Source: Branchiostoma floridae (lineage: Eukaryota; Chordata; Leptocardii; Amphioxiformes; Branchiostomatidae). Taken from it: a stretch of DNA of 64,000 bases. Position numbers and translations under genes: made by a program. The stretch covers positions 20,013,002 through 20,077,001 of the forward strand of contig NC_049990.1 in assembly GCF_000003815.2 (NCBI RefSeq), given 5' to 3'. Under the pieces are notes generated by a model. The model made no database searches. It was given only the letters and a program-made list of their open reading frames with translations, and was not told where the DNA came from. Below, piece after piece: positions 17,070 to 63,921 of this stretch (position 1 is its first letter; each line of letters begins with the position of its first letter).

Positions 17070-20000
17070 TTATTTGATGTTCCTGACGATCCGTCTACAG
17101 TGTGTGGACTTCATCTCTGCCAGAGCGCCCTCTAGCACCCGTGTCATGTGCAGCAGGTTTACAGGGTCCGTCTGCAGCACCTGGACATCCTTTTCACCTG
17201 CAACAGATACAAAATAGCCTTCATATTGGTACATGACACAAGGGAGGTATAGACAAGTTATAGACAATATTATACAGTTTTATCTCGCTGGTGTGTTCAA
17301 AAAGAGCTACATTGTGAAGGAAGGGAAGGGCTAGTAAGACATGGGCATTGTCCAGCTGAACTCTCACTACACCACTCTCAGTCTCATACTTGTTCCACCA
17401 CACCACTTTGAGAGCTTTTCAGTGTAATGCCAGGTATTCCTCTAGCTCACATCATCACACTATTCAAATATAAGTCTCTGAGTCCTACATCATCATTTTC
17501 TTTCTAAACTGAAATTACGAAACTCTCCCTTGTCAAGTTTATGTTTCCTTTCAAATGCAACCCACAAGCCATATCAAAACCAACCTTCACCATGATCTAG
17601 CACAGTAAACCTAGTATACTACATGTGTCTCCAACCAACTTTATAGTTCAGTGCTCAACAGTTGTCTCTAGGCTTGAACTGAGCAATACCAACCATTAAA
17701 AAAGAGCATACTTTACTTGAACTATTTCCAGTATACCTGAGTCTTGGGTGTGCAGTTTCATCATAAGCCTAGGAGTGACTTGATGTCTCAGAGTCCTGCT
17801 GGCAACCTGCAACAACAGAATGTACAAATTATTCTTAATACAAGCGCAAGCAATTTACATACAGAAAGTGAACACAAAACCTCCATACTAGACTTTATCC
17901 TGGTCTTGGGGAATTTTCCCAAATACATGACATATGCATGGAGTAAATCAGCTAACTTGTCAAACCTCTTGCAAGAAACAGGTGATAAGTTTTTTTGCTT
18001 AGTTGAACATTTATCATGTATACCTGTCCTTGGTGCTGAAAACAACCTCCATGATAACCACTACTGAATATTGCATAAAACACAATATGTAAAGCTATTT
18101 CACACACTTATCTTTATTTCATAGAAGCAATTTGGAGTGCTTCAGGACACTGTGCTGACTTTTACCCCTATCAATAAGTGTGGGTTCTTTAATTTTTGTT
18201 CTTTGATCTAATTCCCTTCTTATGCATTGGAAAGGATGTCAAAAACATATTTTCAAATGAATGATGATGGAAAATTGGTGTTAAGTGAAAGTGCTCACAA
18301 ACCATTTTACTTCACTAAAGAGGTACTCATCCTGTCAGACAACAGGGGTCGTGGTAAACTAAGGAGATTATAAAAAAGTATTTCATCCTGATAAATGTCA
18401 GAGCAACCTACTACCCAAATGTTACTCTTTTGGCCACCATGTATTCTGCCTTACCGTGACCTCCAGCCTCCACTCCAGGTTGTGATAGTGAGGGAGGTCC
18501 ATGATCATCTCAGACAGGATGGTTCTGATCTCTGTCCTGTTGTATGTAGGTACAGCAAACTATTACCCAGATGATACATGTACCCAGACTACCCCTAATG
18601 TAACAGCCACCACGTATTCTGCCTTACTATAACCTCCAGTCTCCACTCCAGGTTGCGATAGTGAGGGAGGTCCATGCTCATCTCAGACAGGATGGTCCTG
18701 ATCTCTGTCCTGTTGTATGTAGGTACAGCAAACTACCCAGGCTACCCTTAATGTAATAACCACCATGTATTTTGCCTTACCGTGACCTCCAGCCTCCACT
18801 CCAGGTTGTGATAGTGAGGGAGGTCCATGCTCATCTCAGACAGGATGGTCCTGATCTCTGTCCTGTTGTCCAGGTACAGTGAACTATTATCCGGGTGGTA
18901 CCCAGGCTACTTAAAATGTCCACCCTTTAGTTTTCCTTACCGTGACCTCCAGCCTCCACTCCAGGTTGTGATAGTGAGGAAGGTCCATGCTCATCTCAGA
19001 CAGGATGGTCCTGATCTCTGTCCTGTTGTCCAGGTACAGTGAACTATTATCCGGGTGGTACCCAGGCTACTTAAAATGTCCACCCTTTAGTTTTCCTTAC
19101 CGTGACCTCCAGCCTCCACTCCAGGTTGTGATAGTGAGGAAGGTCCATGCTCATCTCAGACAGGATGGTCCTGATCTCTGTCCTGTTGTCCAGGTACAGC
19201 TGTAACAGCAGGGAGCGCAGATCCTCACTGAACCCCAGGGTCATGATGGAGTCCTGGAAATCTATCTCAGATATCTGGGGGGGAAGAGAATAACACAAAA
19301 AGTTTATTGCAAATACATGCCCTAGGCCTTATTGCAAGTACAAGCAACACATCACATAAAGTAATGAAAAATATTTGGTACCTGTACTGATGACTATATC
19401 TAGTGTTATGCTACATTTCTAAATATACATGGTGTTAGTTTTGTTGGGTTTGACTTCCTCTTTTAGGGCATCGGAAGACAAATTTGGACACTACCGCTAA
19501 GACAAGTACCATTAAACACAAATGCCATAAACAAAAGTGACTCCTCATTGAATGCAGCTACTAGTACAATGTACATTTTAAAAGTCCTTTGTAATCTCTG
19601 TATAACATGTATGTTGCGAATGAACCATGTAGCTAGGTGCCTGAGTATTTAAAGTAACAACATTTTGTACTTACCATGTACCTTGCTGCCTCCGTCAGTA
19701 AGAACATCAGTCCTTCCACCCCATGCTGTACTGTTTCTGATGCAACTGAAAGTTTTTCTACAAGGACAGAAAAATAGTTTCATAGAAATTCGAATTGATA
19801 GGGATTTGTTACCACAGAATCTGATACGTGTACATGTTTACTTGATCTGCATTTACAAATAAAGACTTTGATATCTTCCAATTTAAGCTACACACCAAGG
19901 CTCTAGCCAGCGTCTGTTTTTCCGTCAATTGACGGAAATTTGCTGCGTCTGACGGAAAAATTTTAAAACCAATCCGTCCACCTTACGGACAAAAATCCTT

Positions 20001-22392: not shown

Positions 22393-25300
22393 ATGGACCA
22401 AAGAGCATTTTTACAGGGCCTGGAGAGGCAGATGGGAACAACGTAAGTATATTTAGTAGTTGCAGAAGGTAGCAACCCTGCAATTATCATACTGAAAATT
22501 AAAACTCTAATTTGATAGCGGCAATTATCCTTGCATGAGTTGCATCCCAGGCAAAATCTGATATTAAACTAAAGCAACTAAAGGTTATAGATAGATAGAT
22601 TGTAGCTCAACTAGTAGCAGCTTCACAGTTGAGCCTCTTGTTCCATTTAGTTGGTAACTGGGAGGCCCCGATATGGAAGGGCATCCTGTTTGGATCTTTC
22701 AAAAGGGATGTACATGTAAAAATGAATTGGTGGTCCTGTGTTTGAAGAGGTACCTTAAGGACATTACACTGGCATCAGTCTTACAGGAACCGTACCTAGT
22801 GGCTGCACTACTACAAGGTGCATTACCATCATCTGTGCCATATAAACCACCATACTTTGTGAATGTCAGTCTGAGAGCTCAAGGTCCTGCTAGTCTGTGT
22901 AGTACCTAACAACAACAACAAAAAACAAACGAAAAAACAAATAGAACTTGGCAGCTAATGTCCAAGGGAAAGCACATGAAACCAAGGCGTCAAAACAAAA
23001 TCAGTGTCCTTACATAAATCTTCCAAGGTCAAAACCAATAAATCTAGAAAAATTGTGTCCTGATGCATGAAAGGGTTTGTAATATTCCATACATATGTTT
23101 ATTTACTCTCCTTATACTTTATAGGCTGCCCAATACAGTCACCTCCTGCCAGTCAGAGCTCCAGGAGCTGATGAGACAGATTGACATCATGGTGAACAGT
23201 AAGAAGGCAGAGTGGGAGAGGGAACTGCAGGCCGTGCAGGTGAAGCTTGATGTCAGGGACAAGGAAGTCCTGATGCAGAGAGCTACACTGGAGGCCAAGC
23301 ACCAGGAGGTACCAGTACTGTGTGTTAAAAGTTTTCGAAAAACTAAACAAGTAGTATACTAATTGTTCTGATTTACATGTAAAGTAGGGGTGGGTACCGG
23401 TACAGAAAATTCAGGTACAGGTCTTAGGATAAGGTCCAGGTCCGGACCTGAACCTAGACCTGATTCAGTATGTGAAAACATGTGGATAGACAATACTAAA
23501 AACAATGGTATTTGACTCCCACTGGAGTTCTAAAATCCTACAAGACTAATTATAACTGCTTCTGTACGATTGACTGTGAAACTCTGTTGAAATGGCTATA
23601 AACTCTGCTTCGCTTCTTTATTGTTATTTTCTTCAACCAGTCCAGTAATCCCCCAAACATGTGAATTCCTGATCATATGATGTGCTTATTTTCTATTAGG
23701 TCCAACACTCGGTCCACCTAATTTATTTAGGTCCTGTTTTTCCGAACCAGTCCAGTAAGAAAAACCCACCCCTAATGTAAACCATGGGCATTGCCATCTA
23801 GGTCACCTGATACAGTCTGACCAATCATCACTGTTCCCATCACCTGAGTAAATCATGGCATTTAAGCTTTGATAGACCAAAGAAGACTGGGATGAGAGGT
23901 ACAGTTTGAAACTGTGAGATGAATTATTGTATTGCATTTATTACAATAAGAAATATTGAATTCTTTTCCAGATAGGGAATTTGCGTCAGCAGTTGGAGGG
24001 GTTTGAGAGAGCCCAGAGGGACCTTGTGGCCCAATATGAACAGCAAGTGTCAGGGCTGCGAAATGAGGTGAGTTAATGCAAACAATTTGAGTACATATAT
24101 TAGCATTACGTACATAATTATGGTAGATTTGAAAAGAGGAATTAGTGGTATTGTTATACATTTTTGTACTTAATAGCTAGTTCTAGTGTACATTTAGGTC
24201 AATACGATGATACTACTTAAAGTACAAAAGTTCTTGTACAAAATGTTCTTTTTGCATTGTAGTTTCTGGGAGACACAGATACTACTGTAAATGCAGAAAC
24301 TTTTGTGGTGGTTTAATGTTAGCAGTTTTCGTGGTGAACATTTCACAGCGAACTTTAAACCACCGCAAACATTTTTCCATGGCAGTAAGACTACTACTAA
24401 GAGACTACAGTGCATGGTGCTACCACGAACTTAAAATCACCGCGAAAAGTCCTTTGCCCTGCTACCGCGAAATTAAATCCCAGCGAACTTTAATGCATTT
24501 ACAGTAGTTTCCAGAAACAAATATTGCTATAAACGATAAATGATTTTTTTTCAATAAACCTCTCCCTTCTTGATACAGCTGACAAACCTAAAGACTAAGT
24601 ATGAGAAGCTCCAGCGGCACCAGCTGAAGAGGTCGTCAGGGTCGAGTGTGGAGAAGGACAGACTGTCTGCAGAACTGAGGGACAGCAGGACAGAGATAGA
24701 GGCACTCAGATCCAAAGTAGAGGTAAGAAAATACATCCAACAAAACAGGACAATATAGGGATCAACAATTGAAATAAAAGTTTCGTCATCTTCACGTTGG
24801 GCAGTCTGGATGTCTTTATTTGTAAAAGAGGGACAACTCTAATGTAGAAAATGTCTTGAAGTCACTTTGAAATGCAGTGAGTGAGTTTATGATAAAATAT
24901 CATCCAATCCTAATGTCACTCTTTACAACAAGGGCTGTCTCCAGGACCTAATCCCTCTGGGACAGAAGTTTGCTTCTCAGGATGGGAAAAAAATTACCCT
25001 GTCCGGCCAAAGTGCATGGCAGGATATTGATAAAAATGTGTTTATGTATACTTAGAGTCGATTCCATATTACCGAGAGGGTGCTTCTTGCCTTTTGTTCC
25101 AACATTTTGGAAATCTTTGTAACAATCTAACTGTGATAAATAACTGTTTAGAACTATTTATAACATCTATGTGACGTTCTAAATATTTCTATAGTATTCA
25201 AACATGTTAGAAACATTTCTAACATCAAATACATTATTTCTGTTAGTTTCTAAACTGTTCCAACATAGATGCATCATTTGTGATCACATGTTCGAACATG

Positions 25301-28201
25301 GAAACAATATGATGAAACTGGGTCAGTGGGCTGGGAATAGGGCAATTCACACATCCCTGCCAAGTGCAGGAAATTATGTCTGTCTGCCACCTTCTCACAA
25401 AAGACTCACCAGTGTATACTAAAGAAAGTCTAAAAATACAAGAGCCAAACAAAGGACCAAGCTTAGCAGCTTTGTTTATGGGGTCAATAAAAGTTTTTAT
25501 GGAGGGAAAAAATGACACAAAATGTTGGAACATGTTGGAACAGTAACAAAAACACATAGATATTTGAAAATTGTTCTAAATAAAGAGATAATTATATCAT
25601 TACTTTCCCAAATGTTCCAACACTTATAAAAAGGTTCAAACATGTTTAAACTTTCATTTTGAAATGTTTGAACAATTTCGAACTTAAGTGACTGAAATGT
25701 TCTTTTACTCAAAATAGTTCAAACTTATTACAAATATTTTTTTCAAAGCCATCTCGATGACTTGGAATTGACTCTATAAGCATTAAACAGATTTAACAAC
25801 AAATGTTAACAACATGCGCAGTCCCAAACAACAACTGGGACAGAAAAAGTTTGTAAATCATGTGTTCTGTACGCTTGTAGGACTATCGTGGACGAGGGAA
25901 GGACTGGGACAGTCAGCGCAGGTCACTCCAAGGTCAGATCCAGAGTCTGGAGGCACAGAGGAAGACTCTAGCAGAGAAGTGTGAACACATGCAGGTAGGT
26001 ACAAGGTAGACAAGGTTCAAAACTAAACCTTAATTAAAATTTGCACACCCAATTTGGGTGGGGTTGTAGGATTGAAATATGACATGAAAAAAGAAAAAAA
26101 TTGACTAAAGCACATTACCCAGAATAGTTTTGCAACACCTTGCAGCACTGTTTGAATTTTGAAAAGTTTAAAGAGTGCATCCTTTAATCAAAAGAACACA
26201 GTAGACAAGAAGTCCAGGACAAAAGAAACAAAACTTAAAGTTCTGCTGCAGTACCAAGATCAGTAACGAGAAGGCCCAAATTTGGCCTTGACCTTTGTAT
26301 CCACATGACACTTACCTAGTACATACCAATATCATCACAATCCATTCAGAGGTTCTTAAGTTATAATTGTTATAATATATCACTGTTGCAGAAGCACAGA
26401 CACGAAGTGGAACCAAAAAACAAAGGGCAAATGGTCTAATTGTTGTATTGATATCAGATGTAGTCTCAAGATCAAGTCTCTCAACAATTTCCTTCTGTTA
26501 CCATAGCAACAGAGTCTCAGTTACCAGTCCCAGCTGAACAAGCGGAGGCAGATGCTGGAGGGTGTGGAGTCGACTCACCAGGTGCAGCTGGCGCAGGTGG
26601 GGGAACAGCTGGAGAGGGCACGTGATGACATCAACATGCAGGAGGAGACCATCGAGAGACTCAAGGTCAGTTCCTTTGCTAGTCTATATGATTATTTTTT
26701 TATATCAACTAGGATTGATGTGTTCAAAAATGTGTATTTTCCCAGAACATCGTAGAGTAGAACTTGTTATCACCAAGTACAGTAGGGGCCTCTTCTCTGG
26801 ATAGTTCTAAAGAACGCTTGCAGATAGATTTTTTTTATATCAACTAGGATTGATCACAGTGTTCAAAAATTTGTATTTTCCGAGAACTATCGTAGAGTGG
26901 AATTTGTTATCACCAAGTACAGTAGGGGCCTCTTCTCTGTATAGTTCTAAAGAACTCTTGCAGATAGATGTGCAAAAGTTAGGTGTGACGGGTCGTTCAG
27001 TATAATAACCAGCTGCTGCCACGCCAAGTGCAAGCAAAGCTGGTGTGTTACGCCAAAGGGCGGTTATACCGGCTATTTAGATATAGATACAGAATCTGAT
27101 ACATATTCACAGAATATGCTCCATTTCTTGTTGCTCTTCTTTTTTCCAAACAAATAAGGTCAATGACCTGCACCAGACCAGACCAGCTGTCACCATGGTT
27201 ACAGGTCCTGGGGCTGTTAAGTAGACACCCTGTGATGCTTGATTATACAATGTAGCAAGTGGCAGGACAGAGCTGGAGGAGCTGGTCACCATATATATGA
27301 ATGTGTTTGAATAAGAATAAACAGAGCAGTAGTCTGTTAGGTTAGACCATGGGAAGGTGGACATTATTAAATAATGTACTATGTATTTGCTTGCTAATGT
27401 TCCCTTGCTAGTTTTCTTCAATGGACTTGGAAAAGAGAACAACAATCCTGAGTAAAACCTTTTTTGTCAGATCAGAGACTTTGTTGCTAAGTTTGGTCAT
27501 CTGGGCTGATCAGTCCAATTAAAGAATGACAAATACTATGCTATGTTGTTGAGGGAGCAATCTTTTATAAGTTGTAATAATGTCTGTTTGTTTGAAACCC
27601 AATTTCATGCTGATTCTATTTTCCAACCCTATCCCCTATAGGCTGAGCTGGATGATACCATCTCTTCCAAAGACCAACTCCTGGGGGAGAATGAACAGTT
27701 GAGGGAGGACCTGAGAAAATCACAGAGGGACAACAGGGTAGGGGCTTATTTCTTGTCTTTATTACTTGAAAAATAAAGAGGATTTTGAGAGACAAATAAG
27801 TACTGCTTTACTCCAACTGCAGTATCAATGTCACACACCAGGGGACCCAAAATAGACCTTAACCCTTAAACTGCCAAACCAGGATATATCCGGCACACAT
27901 ATACATGCCCTGTGTGCGGCGCCCGGATATATCCGGGATAGTGCATTCCCCTGAAGTAGCAGCTTTGCGCGCGAGTAGTGCATGAACCCCGGAAGTTAGG
28001 GACTTTGGCCTTGTTAGGGGGTTTCTTTTTGTAGGTCAGCGGCCAACCCTGGCACTTACAGCATTTTATAGGGCTGAAGCTCTGGCAGTTTAAGGGTAAA
28101 ATTTCAATCACAATTAACATACCAAGTATCATTACTAACAATAATTATTCATCCAATGGTTCTAAAGTTGTGCTGACCAGAAACATCTGGAAACACATTC
28201 A

Positions 28202-28248
<47 letters not shown>

Positions 28249-31200
28249 CAAAAGCAATACCTCTATTTTCATGGAGGTTACAGATGTTTCCAACTTGTTG
28301 CCTTATTGTAGAGGCTGGAGGACGAGGTGAATAGACTAAACCTGGAGCTGCAGTCCCGAGATGACCTGATCCAGGCTGCTGAGAGGGACCAGAAGAACCA
28401 CAGTAAGGACCTGTCACGACTGGAGGAGTCACTACACATGAAGGACAAGCTCATCAGGTATGGCTTATAGCACTACACATGGCACTACACATGTCACTAC
28501 ACAGAAGAACCACAGTAAGGACCTGTCACGACTGGAGGAGTCACTACACATGAAGGACAAGCTCATCAGGTATGGCTTATAGCACTACACATGGCACTAC
28601 ACATGTCACTACACAGAAGAACCACAGTAAGGACCTGTCACGGCTGGAGGAGTCACTACACATGAAGGACAAAGTCATCAGGTATGGCTTAGAGCACTAC
28701 ACATGGCACTACACATGTCACTACACAGAAAGAACACCGTAAGGACCTGTCACGGCTGGAGGAGTCACTACACATGAAGGACAAAGTCATCAGGTATGGC
28801 TTAGAGCACTACACATGGCACTACACATGTCACTACACAGAAGAACCACAGTAAGGACCTGTCACGACTGGAGGAGTCACTACACATGAAGGATAAACTC
28901 ATCAGGTATGGCTTATAGCACTACACATCACTACACATGTCACTACACAGAAGAACCACAGTAAGGACCTGTCACGGCTGGAGGAGTCTCTACACATGAA
29001 GGATAAACTCATCAGGTATGGCTTATAGCACTACACATGGCACTACACATGTCACTACACAGAAGAACCACAGTAAGGACCTGTCACGGCTGGAGGAGTC
29101 ACTACACATGAAGGATAAACTCATCAGGTATGGCTTATAGCACTACACATCACTACACATGTCACTACACAGAAGAACCACAGTAAGGACCTGTCACGGC
29201 TGGAGGAGTCACTACACTTGAAGGACAAACTCATCAGGTATGGCTTATAGCACTACACATGGCACTACACATGTCACTACACAGAAGAACCACAGTAAGG
29301 ACCTGTTACGACTGGAGGAGTCACTACACATGAAGGATAAACTCATCAGGTATGGCTTATAGCACTACACATCACTACACATGTCACTACACAGAAGAAC
29401 CACAGTAAGGACCTGTTACGACTGGAGGAGTCACTACACATGAAGGATAAACTCATCAGGTACAGCTAGAACTACACATGGCACTACACATGGCACTACA
29501 CATGGCACTACACATGATCTCATCAGGTATACAATACAGCTTACAGCACTACACAATGGCTAAGGGCAGGTTTTTTTTCAGCAAAACATTTTTTTCTTGT
29601 TGGGCTGGTCCAGAAGATTACCAGTTAAACTTTAATTTGTTGTTTACATGAAGATTGAATTTTAAGAGGCCTGATACTCCATCAAAGAGATTTCTTTGCA
29701 GCAAAATGGACCATTGTTTTGAGTATCGCCCATTCACAAGTTTTCACAAGTCTGACAATCAGGTCAGTGAATGGTAACTTTAAACATGTTCTGCACTTTC
29801 CATGCTCTTCACTCACTGTAGGTCACTTGAGGATGCCACCAGAAAAGAGGAGGCAGCTGAACTCAATCAACTCAGGGAAGAACTCAGTAGCTGTAGGTCA
29901 GAAGCCAGGTACATCTTGTTCTGTTGTATTTTATACATTAAACAATTTTTTTTCAGCAGAACACTGCGTGCAAATAGCTTTATTGAAAGTTAGACCAAGA
30001 TTTATACAACAGTCTAACATTGTTATTAACAATGACTAGAAGGGTGCCATCCTCTTTAGTAACTGCTGTATATTATACAATGTCATGTAGCTAATCGGGA
30101 TGATGGTATCCAGGCTAAGCAATTACATTTAGTCAGTAAGAAAATTTTTTTTTCAAGGTTACAATAATTATTATTATGGTGCTATATTCAACAAATATAT
30201 TTAAGTTCTTCTCAGTAGCCTCATTTTTGGACCATTGTTTTGAGAATCACTCACAATCAGGTTCAGGTTTGGACTGCCTGGACCTGATTCTTTGGACCTG
30301 AACCTGACCTGGACCTGAATTTGCTGCACTGGTACCCTGGTGACCCCTAGTACATGTAACAGTTACTATGAATAACTTCTATCCATGTTGCTGTGTATTC
30401 CTGTTCTCAGAGCCTGCAGGAAAAATGAACAGAGACTCAGAGAGGAGGTTGACAGGTTACAAGCTAGGTACAGTCACAGAGCCAGCATCTGATGCATGAA
30501 ACTCTCTCTCTGCACGTAGATCCCAAAGCATGCAATAATGATCACCCAATCCTATACTGCATGACAAATTCCTTCAAATTGAAAGTAGCTGTTAGTGTTA
30601 GCCTTTAAGTGAGAATCAGTTTGTCTGTCAATGATTTAGTTGTTAGCTGTTTAGTGAACCAATCAGTTGAATCAATTCTATTTCTTTAATTCCTGATCAA
30701 TCAAAATCATTCTTGTTGCTGTTACTATTACAGCAACATCCAGCGATGTATCATTTTTTTAAACATAATACCACACTGCATTGATTATATTGATGACATC
30801 CTCACATGCATTTTTTGGCTGTTGCCTAAAGAGAAAATTTGGGACCACACATAAATCGTTCAAATTAAACTGCTAAATGAGCACACAAGTGCTGTAAGTT
30901 AGAAACCTGTATAAAAGAAATGAATCTTAACCAATGTTATACAATCTCTCTTTTTCAATCGTAAAACGCACATTGCTTTTGTCATAAACTTTGCACATTG
31001 CACAAAAATAAAGAATTTAGTTGGATCTTTAGATAACATTCAAGGCAAATTTACATTTCTTTTGGCTCAACTATCATTTTCTATTGTCTCTGTCTGCAGG
31101 GCCCTTTGTAAAAGCCACAGGTTAGTTTGGCAACCTTGGCTGCCTGTGCTTAACAGCCAAACCAATAAATGATAATTAGATGAAAAAATGAATATTTTTT

Positions 31201-34200
31201 CACATACTAGAAGTAGTCTCACATCAATTTTGCTGTGCCTAGAAGATGTTATCCATATAATCAGATCAGTGTGGCCTACAGATTGATTGTACTAACTCTG
31301 AGCCCTCCCCCTCCTCCCCCTGTAGTCTNNNNNNNNNNNNNNNNNNNNNNNNNNNNNNNNNNNNNNNNNNNNNNNNNNNNNNNNNNNNNNNNNNNNNNNN
31401 NNNNNNNNNNNNNNNNNNNNNNNNNNNNTAATGCAGCAAACACCTTTTTTTTCCCTACTATGGACTCAAGTTCACAGCATCACAGCACCAACCATTTATC
31501 ATAAAGGCTTGGTTATTACTTGTTAGACTAAGTGGTGTTTTCGGTTTCTAATTTTTTTGTTCTTTTCCCTCAGGACTTGAGAGAGGCAGAGGTGAAGCTC
31601 ACAGAGTTACAGGGAAGCTATTCTGCCTCAGTTGCAAAACTTGAGGTACAAACATTTTTAAAAAGGAATGATAACGAAATGTTGAACACTTTTCTTGCTT
31701 ATTTGGAACAAACAAAACAATTACTACAGATACTACAGGGGAAATGGACACAACAGGGTGCAGGAATTAGAGGGGGTATGGATATAACAGGGTGGAGACA
31801 CCACAGGGGGTTCAGACAGTATAATGGGTACGGACACGACAGAGGGAACAGACACAAGATCTAGAGGGGATTAAGACAGTACAGGGGGGTATGGACACAA
31901 TAGGGGGCACAGGCACTACAGCAGGTATGCACACTAACAGGGGTACGAACACTACAGCAGGTATGCACACTAACAGGGGTACGAACACTACAGCAGGTAT
32001 GCACACTAACGGGTACGGACATTTCAGCAGGTACAAACATTGTTTGTTTGTTTGTTTATTTTTATTTAACCAGGGATACATATCGCCAATTTAGGCGTTT
32101 TTCAAAGTTCCCTGGGGGGCAACCCCGAAACATACATGCAACATAAAAGCGATATCAAGTAACATAAATGGTATCATAGCGAGTACTAACGAAAATTAAC
32201 ACAACTTAGCTTACAAATGATAAAGTAAAACAAATCAATTATACAACGTAAGCATAATATAACTCGAAATCATTATCAAAATGAAATAAATGGAAATGAA
32301 TAGAGATTTGCATACCAATGTGAACAAAATAAGAAAAGACATAATACGTTTGGGGTACAAACATTTGACACTACAGGGGATATGAAGCTTTGGAACAAGC
32401 ACAGTATTGAAGGGAACTAAATCTTAGCATGAAAGTTCATCTGTGTTGGTAGAATACATTATACAAATTGCTAAACTTTCTTTCCAACACTGAAATTAGT
32501 ATAGGGACTTACCCTAAATTTTCAGTCAAACTCCGTGGACCTTGTTCACAGACTTTCTGATACTTACATGTATGTATCATCATAAGTATCAGAAAGTCTG
32601 TGAACAAGGTTGACGGAGTTTGACCGAAACTTTAGGGTAAGTCCCTATATTAATTTCAGTGTTGGAAAGAAAGTTTAGCAATTTCTATAAGGAACTAAAT
32701 CTGTTTGTCTGAAACATATTACGATAAGCTCCTGTTCCTAAGAAAGATATTAGATAGTGATTTTGTTTGACTGTATTGTTTTCGTCTTATTGTCACTACT
32801 ACCTAATAGGTAGTTTTAGTCTCTTTCAGTCCGAATATGATGGGCAAATAAGGTACAATGTAAAGGATTAGTAAACACTATCTGCAAGGTTTAATCTTCA
32901 AGAGATATGTAGACCTGAAGGTCTTTTGATTTACCCTGAGCTATGTCTGTGCTGATAGGAGGAGAATCTCCGTCTGCGTGAGGATGTGTCCGGCCTGCGA
33001 GACCAGCTGGAGCTGAGTGAACAGACCAACCAGGAGAAGTACAGTGCTGCGCTCCGACAGACACAGCGCGCCATCACGGACCTCAGGAGTAAGGAGGACA
33101 GGTCAGAGTTCTTTTGCTACCACACAAGCTTGCATGCCTTACTGCCCAGTATTAACTTTCCGGGTTCGTGCCCTGAGCCAACAGACTGGGTTCCAGTTCA
33201 TCCTGCAGACAGCCTGTGACTCGCTTGACGGAGCTTTTGATGCATAAACATTGTGCAATGTTTCTGCTGGAAGCTTTTGATTTCAACACAAACTGAATGG
33301 CATTCAAGTATGTGAGTGTGAGGTCTATTTTGACTGATGAGATAACTGGGACAATACTGCTATTAGTTCTCATGCAGCAAATGACAAGGAAGAAAATTGC
33401 GTCATTGTCATGCGGAAGCACACTCCTGCTAATATGCTGAAAAAAAGGTGTAGGGTGAAGAGCGTTCTATGCCAGTCTGAAGTCATATATAAATTTGCAC
33501 AGTATTTAGATGTGTCAGTGTTCCAATCATTTGGGGATTTGGTCATTGTTTTCTTTTCTGCAAGTTGTGGAATGGCACCGGTACCAGCACCTGTAGGATT
33601 ATTCTTTCTGCAGTCCTTTTGTTTTACTTGACATGTACTACCCATGCATATATTGTTACACATCAATGGTTTAATTCATGCTGATGAATGTCAAGGATTG
33701 TCATTGTCATTTGACTAAATGGTACTGGATAGATGCAACAATTTTGTATCTTTTTATGGTCTTACCTTGTTCTCTTGCACACATTTTATTACAGTAACTG
33801 TTTATTAAAACCTGCCTAAGTCTCATTCAAGATCTGTATGTGTGTAATTTGCATTTTGTCTGATACCTACAGAAGAGTCCGTAGCATACAGGAGGAGAGT
33901 GACAGAAAGCTGCAGGCCCTGCAGGATAAACTAGACTCCACAATAGGCCGATACGAACAGGAGCTGGATGGTGGGAGGAGGAGGAGGGGAGGGTCACAGT
34001 CAGACTCTGTCGTCAGCTTCAGAGGTAATACCTAAAGACGGAATTTTTGTTTGTATTGAAATTTAAGGCTTAGCCTGGGTACCACCCGGATAGTAGTTGA
34101 CGCTCCTATGTTCACTTCTGCTATCTGTCTGGAGACCTGCAAATTCAAACTGTAAAATCAGTTAATGAGAAAATTACGGAATGGGTTCTAGAGCGCTCGT

Positions 34201-58436: not shown

Positions 58437-61400
58437 CTAAGCAATGAACTCACAGATGTAGTAGATAGAGCTTGGGCATGGACCATCATTCCAGCGGTAG
58501 TCCCTAGTAGGCTTGATGTGAGCACAGTTTTCCCTTGTGCCACCGTTTGGTTCGTCAGTCGCCCATATCCCATCACCAACCAGTGAAGTACCATCATCCC
58601 AAACCCACAGCCCCTCTGCCTCTTGATCACTCAGCCCGATCCAGGTGTTTGCTCTAGTTGTAGCTCTCACGTGATTGGTCAGGAAGTCGTGTGTCTCCTG
58701 ATCCTTCACTGTTGCTAGGCGACCACCCTCTCCATGACAAATGGCCCGTGCCTCGCTGTACGGTTTCTGATCAGTGGAGAAACGATAGCAGGTCCTCTGG
58801 AACCGCTGGTAGCCAACCGGACAAGCTGTTGGGGTGTGAGATGAGTGTGGGGTGTGAGATGAGAATTAATTTGTTTCCAAAACTTTACCTTACAATTTGA
58901 AACCATACACATGTCTTTCATAATGACCAACCTGATCACTAGTACTGTGGACACTCCCCCCCCCCAATTTTGTCCATACAATTTAAATTTTTATATAGCC
59001 TATATTTTTTTAATGCAAGAGCCTACAAGTTTGCGATTTTCAACTGGGCTGTCTAATGCCGACAGTTTTTGCGCTGGAACTTTAGCCCGGTGCCCATTAA
59101 TCAGTACCCCCCCCCCCTCAAAAGGGTACAAGCCAGTGCCGCAAACGTGGCTCAGTTGTTAACAGATAACCAACTTTTGCAGTCTTTATTATTTTATCCA
59201 TCCTTGCCTTAGGTTAAACACACAAGAGAAGAGAGTGCATTATGTATCTGCCAAGAAAAGATCATATACCTGTGTCTCTGTTTCTCTCCTCAAGTTGTGC
59301 AACTCTCTCCTTCAGACTGTCTGTGATGTTCTTCTGTTCGGCCAATAGATGTGACAAGCGACTGATCTGCATAATAGCTCCAAACTATCAGGTTCAATTG
59401 TGATGGTGCATAGGGTACGCAATATGCGATACACGGAAAGGTCAGATGCACTGTGACATGCATTGTGGCTAATATGTCAAAGTTGAAGGTCCTATAGATG
59501 AAACAAGTTGGTGGAATTCACATATCATATTGCGTACAATGCATCTCTTCTTCTTCTTCTCTTCACGTGTCTTTACTTAAATTTCTTAACCAGCCGATCA
59601 AGATTGTTTCAGATGTCTGTGATGGAATAATATACCTGGCCTGGTGTTTCAGGTGTGCCGACTGTGCAGGATGAACAACATGCACCTGGTGCACCTGGCT
59701 GTCCGTCTCTTCCAGGTAAACCTGGTTGTCCGTCCCTCCCCGGAACACCAGGTGGGCCCTGGGATCCTTGAAGGCAACCTGAGAGTAAATAGCATTTATG
59801 ATTTGCTACTTTTATCATCATGTTAACACAGTAACAGAATGCAATTAAGATAACAAGAGTTTGGATATATACATATCTCTATGAAATATTCTGATTATGC
59901 AACTGACTTTCACATCTGCATAATCTATGCTTGGTTATGTTCAACTTAAACTTACACAGGTCACAATGATGACAATCCTATCATCGCTGCATGTACTTGG
60001 ATTAAATATGACAGTTTCACGTTTATCATACAAATTAGGGAGTTATTATCATAATTGGTATCTGGTAATCTTCCACCTGCCACAAACTACATATGTTAAA
60101 TGTATTTGAAGCCTACAATTATGGAAAACACTAAATGTAGATTTCCCTCATTAATTATGCAAATTAAGTTCAAATTTGCACTTCTTTATGTACATCTCTG
60201 CCAAAGATACCTAATAGTATGCTGGAAATTCATTGTTCCTATGTTGTGTTATGCTCCTTGGAAGAGTTTGAGAAAAATGGCCCTGCAGTCACAGAGCAAG
60301 CTGCAATGGGGCCCAAACATACATCGCTTCTTCCTTACATCACAAGTTAACCGTCACCTAAAAATCAAGACCATAGCATGTCCAGGTCAAAAGATACAGA
60401 AAAATGAAATTCTACTGCAGTACCAAGATCACACACCAGGGGCCCTAAAATGGACCTTGACCTTTGTCTTCCCAACACCTACCCACATACCAACTATAAT
60501 AACAATCCATTTATAGGTTTTATGCTGACACAAACATCTGGAAACACAGACACACGGAAAACTATACCTTCATTTTTTCATTGAATTAGTTATTTGCTAT
60601 TGGAAACCTCGAGTGAGAACTTACTTCCAAAAGGTAGAGTAACGCTGTTGGGGGATCTCTTGGTCCTCAGGTGGCTCACCTTTCCCTCCCCACTCTGTTT
60701 CCCGCTGTATTTGGCAGTGTTTGTGCCAGGTTCTGGGCCCTCGGGGGGCTAGCAATAAAGAGGAGGAAACGTGGTGTTTATTGTGGTGTGAAAAATGTGT
60801 TGACTAGCAGGCCTTCTGTTATAATATACCAACAAATTAAGGCTCTTGTTTGGCCGATTTGTTTCTAAATTAGACTAACTTAGACTTACGTTTGTGATAC
60901 ATGGAACTGTTAGGACTTAACAGCCATCTTCAAGTTGGCTCAGGTCGTATATATCCACAAATTTAGAGTCAAAGTTACCTTTAAGTTTTCAATTTCACTA
61001 GTTCATTGTCTATAAACACTCTTAATCTGCTCGAAAGGAAGAACTAAGACCTACGTATGAGATAGTGAGTGTGGTTGTCACTTTGGGCTGTTTGAGCTAG
61101 AGAGCATTTTTGCTGTTTCTGTTACAATAAACGTTCAGTTATGGACATAATGTCTTGAGATAATTTTCCCCCTGTATAAACAAATTTGAATATAGAGTTC
61201 ACAACAGTTGCTTTTTTTACTATTGTACTAGTCTAGTTCTTTGTGGGACTTCCATTTGCAAATTACTGGCCATCATATGGCTTACCCATACTAAAGCCAT
61301 ATCTATTGTCCTACAGTGTATGACAAGGTCGTTGAGATTGATTTGTTATCATGCCAATTTTTGAATGAAAAAAAAACTCACAAAATTGCCAAACCAGCAG

Positions 61401-63469: not shown

Positions 63470-63921
63470 CTAAGCAAGGACTTCACAGATGTAGTAGTAA
63501 GAGCTTGGGCATGTACTATCATTCCAGCGGTAGTTATGGTGTCCAGGGTAGATCTGAGCACAGTTTTCCCCTGTGCTACCGTTTGGTTCGCCTGTACCCC
63601 AGATCCCATCACCAACCAGTGAAGTACCATCATCCCAAACCCACAGCCCCTCTGTCACCTGATCACTCAGCCCGATCCAGGTGTGGTCTCTAGTTGTAGC
63701 TCTCACGTGATTGGTCAGGAAGTCGTGTGTCTCATTATTCTTCACTGTTGCTAGGTGACCGCCATCTCCATGACAAATGGCCCGTGCCTCGCTGTACGGT
63801 TTCTGATCAGTGGAGAAGCGATAACAGGTCCTCTGGAACCGCTGGTAGCCAACTGGGCAAGTGCCGGACGAGTCTGTGGGCTGAGATTCTGTGATGAGGG
63901 AAGACGTGGTTTCCATGCTTG
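63470..63921 (-). CDS. C-type lectin paralogue, last exon only (5' part outside window)
   Basis: One exon (acceptor TTCTAG just right of 63921) encodes about 20 Ser/Thr-rich linker residues and a complete C-type lectin domain starting at CPVGYQRFQRTCYRF. The domain has WIGLSD, EPN in GEPNGS and WND in YRWNDSTC, so calcium-dependent sugar binding is expected. It is very close to the domain at 58437-58825; the largest difference is in the loop after EPN (AQIYPGHHNY against AHIKPTRDY). Exon phase 1 at its start matches the lectin exon of the first gene. Whether it has a membrane or collagen part cannot be seen. An ATG lies at 63914-63916, but the acceptor suggests upstream exons. Confidence 0.85.

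Follow-up and report, generated by a model that had tools for sequence, protein, structure and literature searches.

Within a stretch of 64,000 nucleotides of Branchiostoma floridae DNA (the window), the end of one CEP63 exon is present in ten tandem copies, the first of which is the real exon end, and we conclude with a probability of roughly 0.88 that this array is a lancelet mirage in CEP63, i.e., a minisatellite across an exon–intron boundary, whose extra copies leave with the intron. We make this assignment because the anatomy of the array matches that which defines a mirage, a tandem unit across an exon–intron boundary, the exon edge in this case being a predicted one.

CEP63 gene model and location of the array

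The plus strand of the window, which lies at C12:20013002–20077001 of the genome, carries a coiled-coil gene, the joined exons of which, from 22393 to 29908, encode 304 residues. This joined model, from which a probable exon near 27642–27740 is omitted and to which one base was appended to complete the last codon, matches the Pfam CEP63 family PF17045 with an E-value of 2.3e-49 (score 169 bits, cut-off 33; best stretch, residues 56–271); judged by this sequence match, the gene is CEP63. When the exons with 20-base flanks were compared with the plus strand of the window (E 0.01), only one of twelve, that at 28312, proved to have a repeated edge, and no extra copies of the other 11 exon edges, some of which are approximate, were found on that strand at the same threshold. 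A (CA)22 microsatellite at 28204–28247 lies shortly before the exon with the repeated end, within the preceding intron.

The features of the region are listed below. Splice-site scores, here and throughout, derive from approximate vertebrate frequencies, which are not lancelet-trained, and only differences between scores are meaningful.

28312..28457, plus strand: real CEP63 exon, 146 bases; acceptor 3.7, donor CAG|GTATGG 4.6; predicted edge
28390..29459, plus strand: mirage-type array, ten units (TRF and unit alignment)
28390..28457, plus strand: copy 1, the last 68 bases of the real CEP63 exon, within 28312..28457
28516..28569, plus strand: exonic part, copy 2; unit identical to copy 1 (112/112)
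28628..28681, plus strand: exonic part, copy 3; one L to V change
28740..28793, plus strand: exonic part, copy 4; L to V as in copy 3; altered leader, CACCG, without an AG acceptor
28852..28905, plus strand: exonic part, copy 5; 110-base unit
28962..29015, plus strand: exonic part, copy 6
29074..29127, plus strand: exonic part, copy 7; 110-base unit
29184..29237, plus strand: exonic part, copy 8; one M to L change
29296..29349, plus strand: exonic part, copy 9; 110-base unit; one S to L change
29406..29459, plus strand: exonic part, copy 10; S to L as in copy 9; weak donor CAG|GTACAG (0.9); diverged tail
29471..29516, plus strand: 12-base minisatellite (ACTACACATGGC) after the array
29822..29908, plus strand: next CEP63 exon; acceptor 4.8

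Anatomy and proposed origin of the array

A sequence-only reading of this DNA had described a ten-copy array of a CEP63 exon end with its donor, in units of 110–112 bases, and the measurements agree with it. The array occupies 28390–29459 with ten units, of 112 or 110 bases, that follow one another head to tail; in each, the last 68 exon bases recur with the donor and the first bases of the intron. TRF places the array at 28390–29502 (period 112, 10.0 copies, 95% matches, score 1972), which is far above chance expectation, and also fits a unit of 222 bases to it. Successive unit starts are 112, 112, 112, 112, 110, 112, 110, 112 and 110 bases apart; the 110-base units are copies 5, 7 and 9, where GG is absent from the intronic 12-mers. 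The whole array has at least one match in the genome (a lower bound, from a search of 513,431,437 bases in 431 contigs).

Every unit begins with a 14-base leader, followed by a 54-base exonic part and then a tail. In copies 1–9 this tail comprises 42–44 bases, has the donor first and consists mostly of CACTACACATG-type 12-mers, while the tail of the last copy has diverged. The 12-mers of the minisatellite behind the array (ACTACACATGGC, 29471..29516) also make up most of the intronic sequence of every unit, and because the exon at 28312–28457 itself contains TCACTACACATG, the intronic 12-mers and the exon have sequence in common.

The flanking exons proposed earlier, 28312–28457 and 29822–29908, hold together with their phase, and so does the description of the exonic part as a 54-base cassette in phase 2 at both ends and without stops: the ten exonic parts all measure 54 bases, contain no indels and are open in that phase. 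The potential acceptor CACAG|T is indeed found in nine of ten copies (copy 4 has CACCG|T); however, the nine include the real exon end (copy 1), which leaves 8 of the 9 extra copies as separable cassettes.

The relationships among the copies are ordered. The first two copies agree at all 112 bases, copies 3 and 4 have the same exonic part and tail, and copies 9 and 10 are identical in the exonic part. Thus, at the 5' edge copy 1 has not diverged from copy 2, while at the 3' edge it is the tail of copy 10 that has diverged. We infer that the intronic 12-base repeats, which resemble part of the exon, supplied the homology for a first duplication, and that unequal exchange and conversion would then have enlarged and homogenized the array. 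The identity of copies 1 and 2 suggests that the real exon end took part in this homogenization, and the paired identities, the alternating 110-base units and the 222-base fit together form the pattern that unequal exchange of paired units, along with conversion, would leave behind.

Splice sites within and around the array

The donor is well kept. The exon at 28312–28457 ends ATCAG|GTATGG, and nine of the ten copies, the real one included, have the donor CAG|GTATGG with a score of 4.6, which only 1% of the 3941 GTs in the window equal or exceed and which falls within the range of eight predicted CEP63 donors (2.0 to 7.3); the donor of copy 10, CAG|GTACAG, scores 0.9.

The proposed acceptor is another matter. 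That CACAG|T lacks a clear polypyrimidine tract had been named in advance as the weak point of the cassette proposal, and it is a real one: in the eight extra copies that have the AG, this site scores -9.3, a value that 73% of the 3913 AGs in the window equal or beat, and its context has 38% pyrimidines, with no pyrimidine run longer than 2. For comparison, scores between 0.0 and 12.1 are reached by the 13 CEP63 acceptors, known or probable, that serve as controls. The first eight alone score 2.4 to 12.1, a range biased upward by the fact that six of these eight had been found by the same scheme at a threshold of 0; the five probable acceptors that were added are 32959 (0.0), 27642 (2.6), 30411 (4.9), 33873 (4.9) and 35158 (5.6), the last four being starts picked by hand among AGs near open coiled-coil stretches. 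Even after the lower end of the control range had thereby moved from 2.4 to 0.0, the cassette acceptor remained 9 bits under the lowest control. The sequence-only reading had proposed that the cassettes could be included singly or in series; that their inclusion is likely is not supported by an acceptor that lies below all 13 controls and in the range of ordinary AGs.

The best AG inside the array lies 11 bases upstream of CACAG and scores -1.3 (18.5% of window AGs are as good), not far below the weakest control acceptor, 32959 (0.0). No acceptor between 28458 and 29822 scores higher than the real one, which stands at 29822 (4.8), and the runner-up (1.0) lies outside the array. Since exon definition would pair the acceptor at 28312 with the donor nearest to it, and there is no strong acceptor within the array, the spliceosome would be expected to join 28457 to 29822 and to discard copies 2–10 with the intron. 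Read-through past each of the ten donors reaches a stop within 3 to 20 residues; a message spliced from a later donor would include such a stop and would probably be degraded.

Two further kinds of cassette were considered and rejected. A 65-base cassette starting from the AG 11 bases upstream breaks the frame and has an in-frame TGA in all nine copies checked. Longer in-frame cassettes, for which any AG from 28478 on and lengths of up to 330 bases were allowed, number nine, of 99, 120 or 126 bases, with acceptors that all score -4.1 or less.

Variation among the exonic parts

Seven of the 54 exonic columns are variable, four of them synonymously and three with amino acid changes. The synonymous share (4/7) compares with 0.23 to 0.31 expected at random (P between 0.054 and 0.136, according to the transition bias assumed). 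Seven random changes would create no stop with a probability of 0.63 to 0.74, and the chance that both of the indel-like events in the array (two by our own count) would miss the exonic part is 0.27. In the intronic tail of copies 1–9, one of 44 columns varies, in addition to one 2-base indel. The exonic part (7/54 variable columns) is thus, if anything, more variable than the tail (1/44; Fisher P 0.07), in a count that covers the exonic parts and the tails of copies 1–9 but neither the 14-base leader, which copy 4 has in altered form, nor the diverged last tail. For selection on the copies, as judged from synonymous share, stops, indels and exonic versus intronic variation, no P below 0.05 was obtained.

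The variation of the exonic parts can be explained, as far as the sequences go, without constraint by a young homogenized array; weak constraint would fit them as well. The open frame and the kept donors are what a young and homogenized array would show in any case.

Alternative explanations

The copies might be alternative cassette exons, with CACAG|T as the acceptor, and lengthen the CEP63 coiled coil by one or several segments of 18 residues. What makes this worth weighing is that the 54 bases are a multiple of three with phase 2 at both ends, that they are stop-free, that 8 of the 9 extra copies provide an AG, and that the real donor recurs unchanged in all but one of the 9. An insert of 18 residues can, moreover, be read as 7+11, and by eye the hydrophobic spacing is even across the joint, so that the helix could tolerate it; by the same inspection, this makes inclusion tolerable rather than likely, and heptad counting breaks down even in the normal protein, where the exon has its best register at 0.71 and the next exon follows another register at 0.44. 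The acceptor, however, at -9.3, is matched or bettered by almost three-quarters of the AGs in the window and is preceded by no pyrimidine run longer than 2, the better AG (-1.3) 11 bases upstream breaks the frame, and the exonic parts are no better kept than the intronic ones. Exons of 54 bases alternating with introns of 56–58 bases would also be unusually tight for an animal. We therefore regard cassette use as very unlikely, even though many mirage repeats are described as keeping AG/GT signals and as potential cryptic sites (PMC3087553). We see just as slim a prospect that a polymorphic exon-edge array contributes 18-residue coiled-coil segments, in varying number and at a low level, to the spliced message; were it so, the birth of exons from a minisatellite would be visible, and a centrosome scaffold could vary in length from one individual or cell to another.

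All ten unit ends of the array carry AG|GT, and each CAG|GT could in principle be a dual-specific or ratchet site, used as an acceptor and then as a donor, by which the intron would be removed stepwise and possibly without a trace in the mRNA. Tandem arrays of such sites are in use in human UBC, according to PMC10809524, and the CEP63 array resembles that of UBC in having AG|GT at each unit edge. Scored as acceptors, however, the ten CAG|GT sites reach only -7.4 to -9.7, and whereas the UBC monomers are described there as coding and frame-keeping, the CEP63 units contain intron sequence and, if retained, would contribute stops. Such use of the sites is, in our estimation, highly improbable. 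A different concern is that the array could be in part an artefact of assembly, with a true copy number other than ten, as the number of mirage copies in PGBD5 is reported to depend on the assembly (2 versus 7 and 3 versus 6; PMC3902484). Here, the copies differ at seven exonic columns and in length, in an ordered pattern, and the array matches at least one place in the genome, a count that is a lower bound; we consider an artefact unlikely. The preferred reading thus remains that of a mirage whose extra copies are removed with the intron.

Comparison with known lancelet mirages and related systems

Mirages are described in PMC3087553 as minisatellite-like tandem duplications of exon–intron boundaries in lancelet globin genes, which had been found earlier in Adh3. 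According to the same source, their units measure 10–160 bases, haplotypes of one globin gene carry 6 and 3 copies, and somatic instability is cited for the Adh3 mirage. PGBD5 was later added to the mirage genes in a report that also cites troponin C (TnC) (PMC3902484). Arrays of this kind at exon edges are therefore already known in lancelet genes, as these accounts document, and that in CEP63 is a further case. Like the mirages of Adh3, the globin genes BflGb6 and BflGb9, troponin C and PGBD5, it consists of minisatellite-like copies of an exon–intron boundary with its splice signal (PMC3087553, PMC3902484), its units of 110–112 bases fall within the published range, and the identities between neighbouring copies may point to homogenization within the cluster. 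It differs from the published mirages, as far as these are described there, in the gene concerned, in its ten copies, and in having behind CACAG an exonic part whose length is divisible by three and which stays open throughout the array.

With respect to splicing, the Adh3 data and globin RT-PCR are presented as suggesting normal splicing despite the mirages (PMC3087553), and in PMC3902484 the Adh and TnC repeats are stated to yield no aberrant mRNAs, the same being inferred for PGBD5. At the same time, it has been proposed that mirage copies may turn into new exons (PMC3087553), and the cassette idea is close to this published exon-birth model. As in the cases treated in PMC3443670 and PMC4974935, a duplicated segment that bears AGGT can offer new donor and acceptor sites; unlike in those cases, as they are described, the duplicated part in CEP63 has no polypyrimidine tract, and the new splice sites are here candidates only.

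Together with an adjacent second case, the CEP63 array extends a phenomenon that has so far, in the reports cited above, been described gene by gene. Its nine identical donors in series constitute a natural test of how the splicing machinery selects the first one, and because its exonic parts preserve the frame, it is a reasonable site at which to look for the exon birth of the published model. If the mRNA proves to be only normal, the CEP63 array is an ordinary one.

A second exon-edge array and other features of the window

The second case is found on the minus strand of the window, in a gene with a COMM domain (PF07258, E 1.2e-7 for the joined piece), which we take to be COMMD2, probably:

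18454..19274, minus strand: exon-edge array of the COMM-domain gene, five copies including the real one; the end of exon 19274–19101 with its GTAAGG donor, followed by four repeats down to 18455

Over an 86-base exonic core of our own choosing, and with intronic gap columns (13 to 20 per pair) kept outside the mismatch counts, the real copy differs from copy 3 at 1 of 86 exonic versus 10 of 44 intronic positions (P 8e-5) and from copy 4 at 6 of 86 versus 15 of 56 (P 0.002), while copies 3 and 4 differ from each other at 5 of 86 versus 8 of 49 (P 0.07). Extending the core by 18 bases upstream, into the copy joint, gives 6/104 mismatches for copies 1 and 3 and 10/102 plus 4 gap columns for copies 1 and 4, and the contrast is weaker. 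The exonic core of this array is far better kept than its intronic part, for which conversion by the real exon is one possible cause, whereas the CEP63 array shows the opposite tendency. In the genome, the COMM array matches its own locus and at least two short stretches elsewhere, of 36 and 45 bases, these counts being lower bounds.

TRF applied to 264 kb (the window with 200 kb flanks) returned 49 rows with a period of at least 25, in which a single array can occupy several rows. Among these 49 rows, no further boundary array was recognized beyond those of CEP63 and the COMM-domain gene, a result that, as the flanks are without gene models, is not a census.

Other repeats are present in the introns of CEP63. 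A two-copy tandem repeat of 140 bases at 26695–26969 starts 30 bases past the CEP63 exon end at 26665. Two intronic minisatellites on the plus strand, at 31727–31811 (34-base unit) and 31914–32033 (36-base unit), lie downstream of the exon near 31574 and contain donor-like motifs such as CAGGTATG and GGGTACG; they are possibly worn boundary arrays. Elsewhere in the window, the minus strand has C-type lectin open reading frames at 58437–58709 and 63470–63916, the latter of which matches Pfam PF00059 (E 5.6e-24), while the former is alike by eye.
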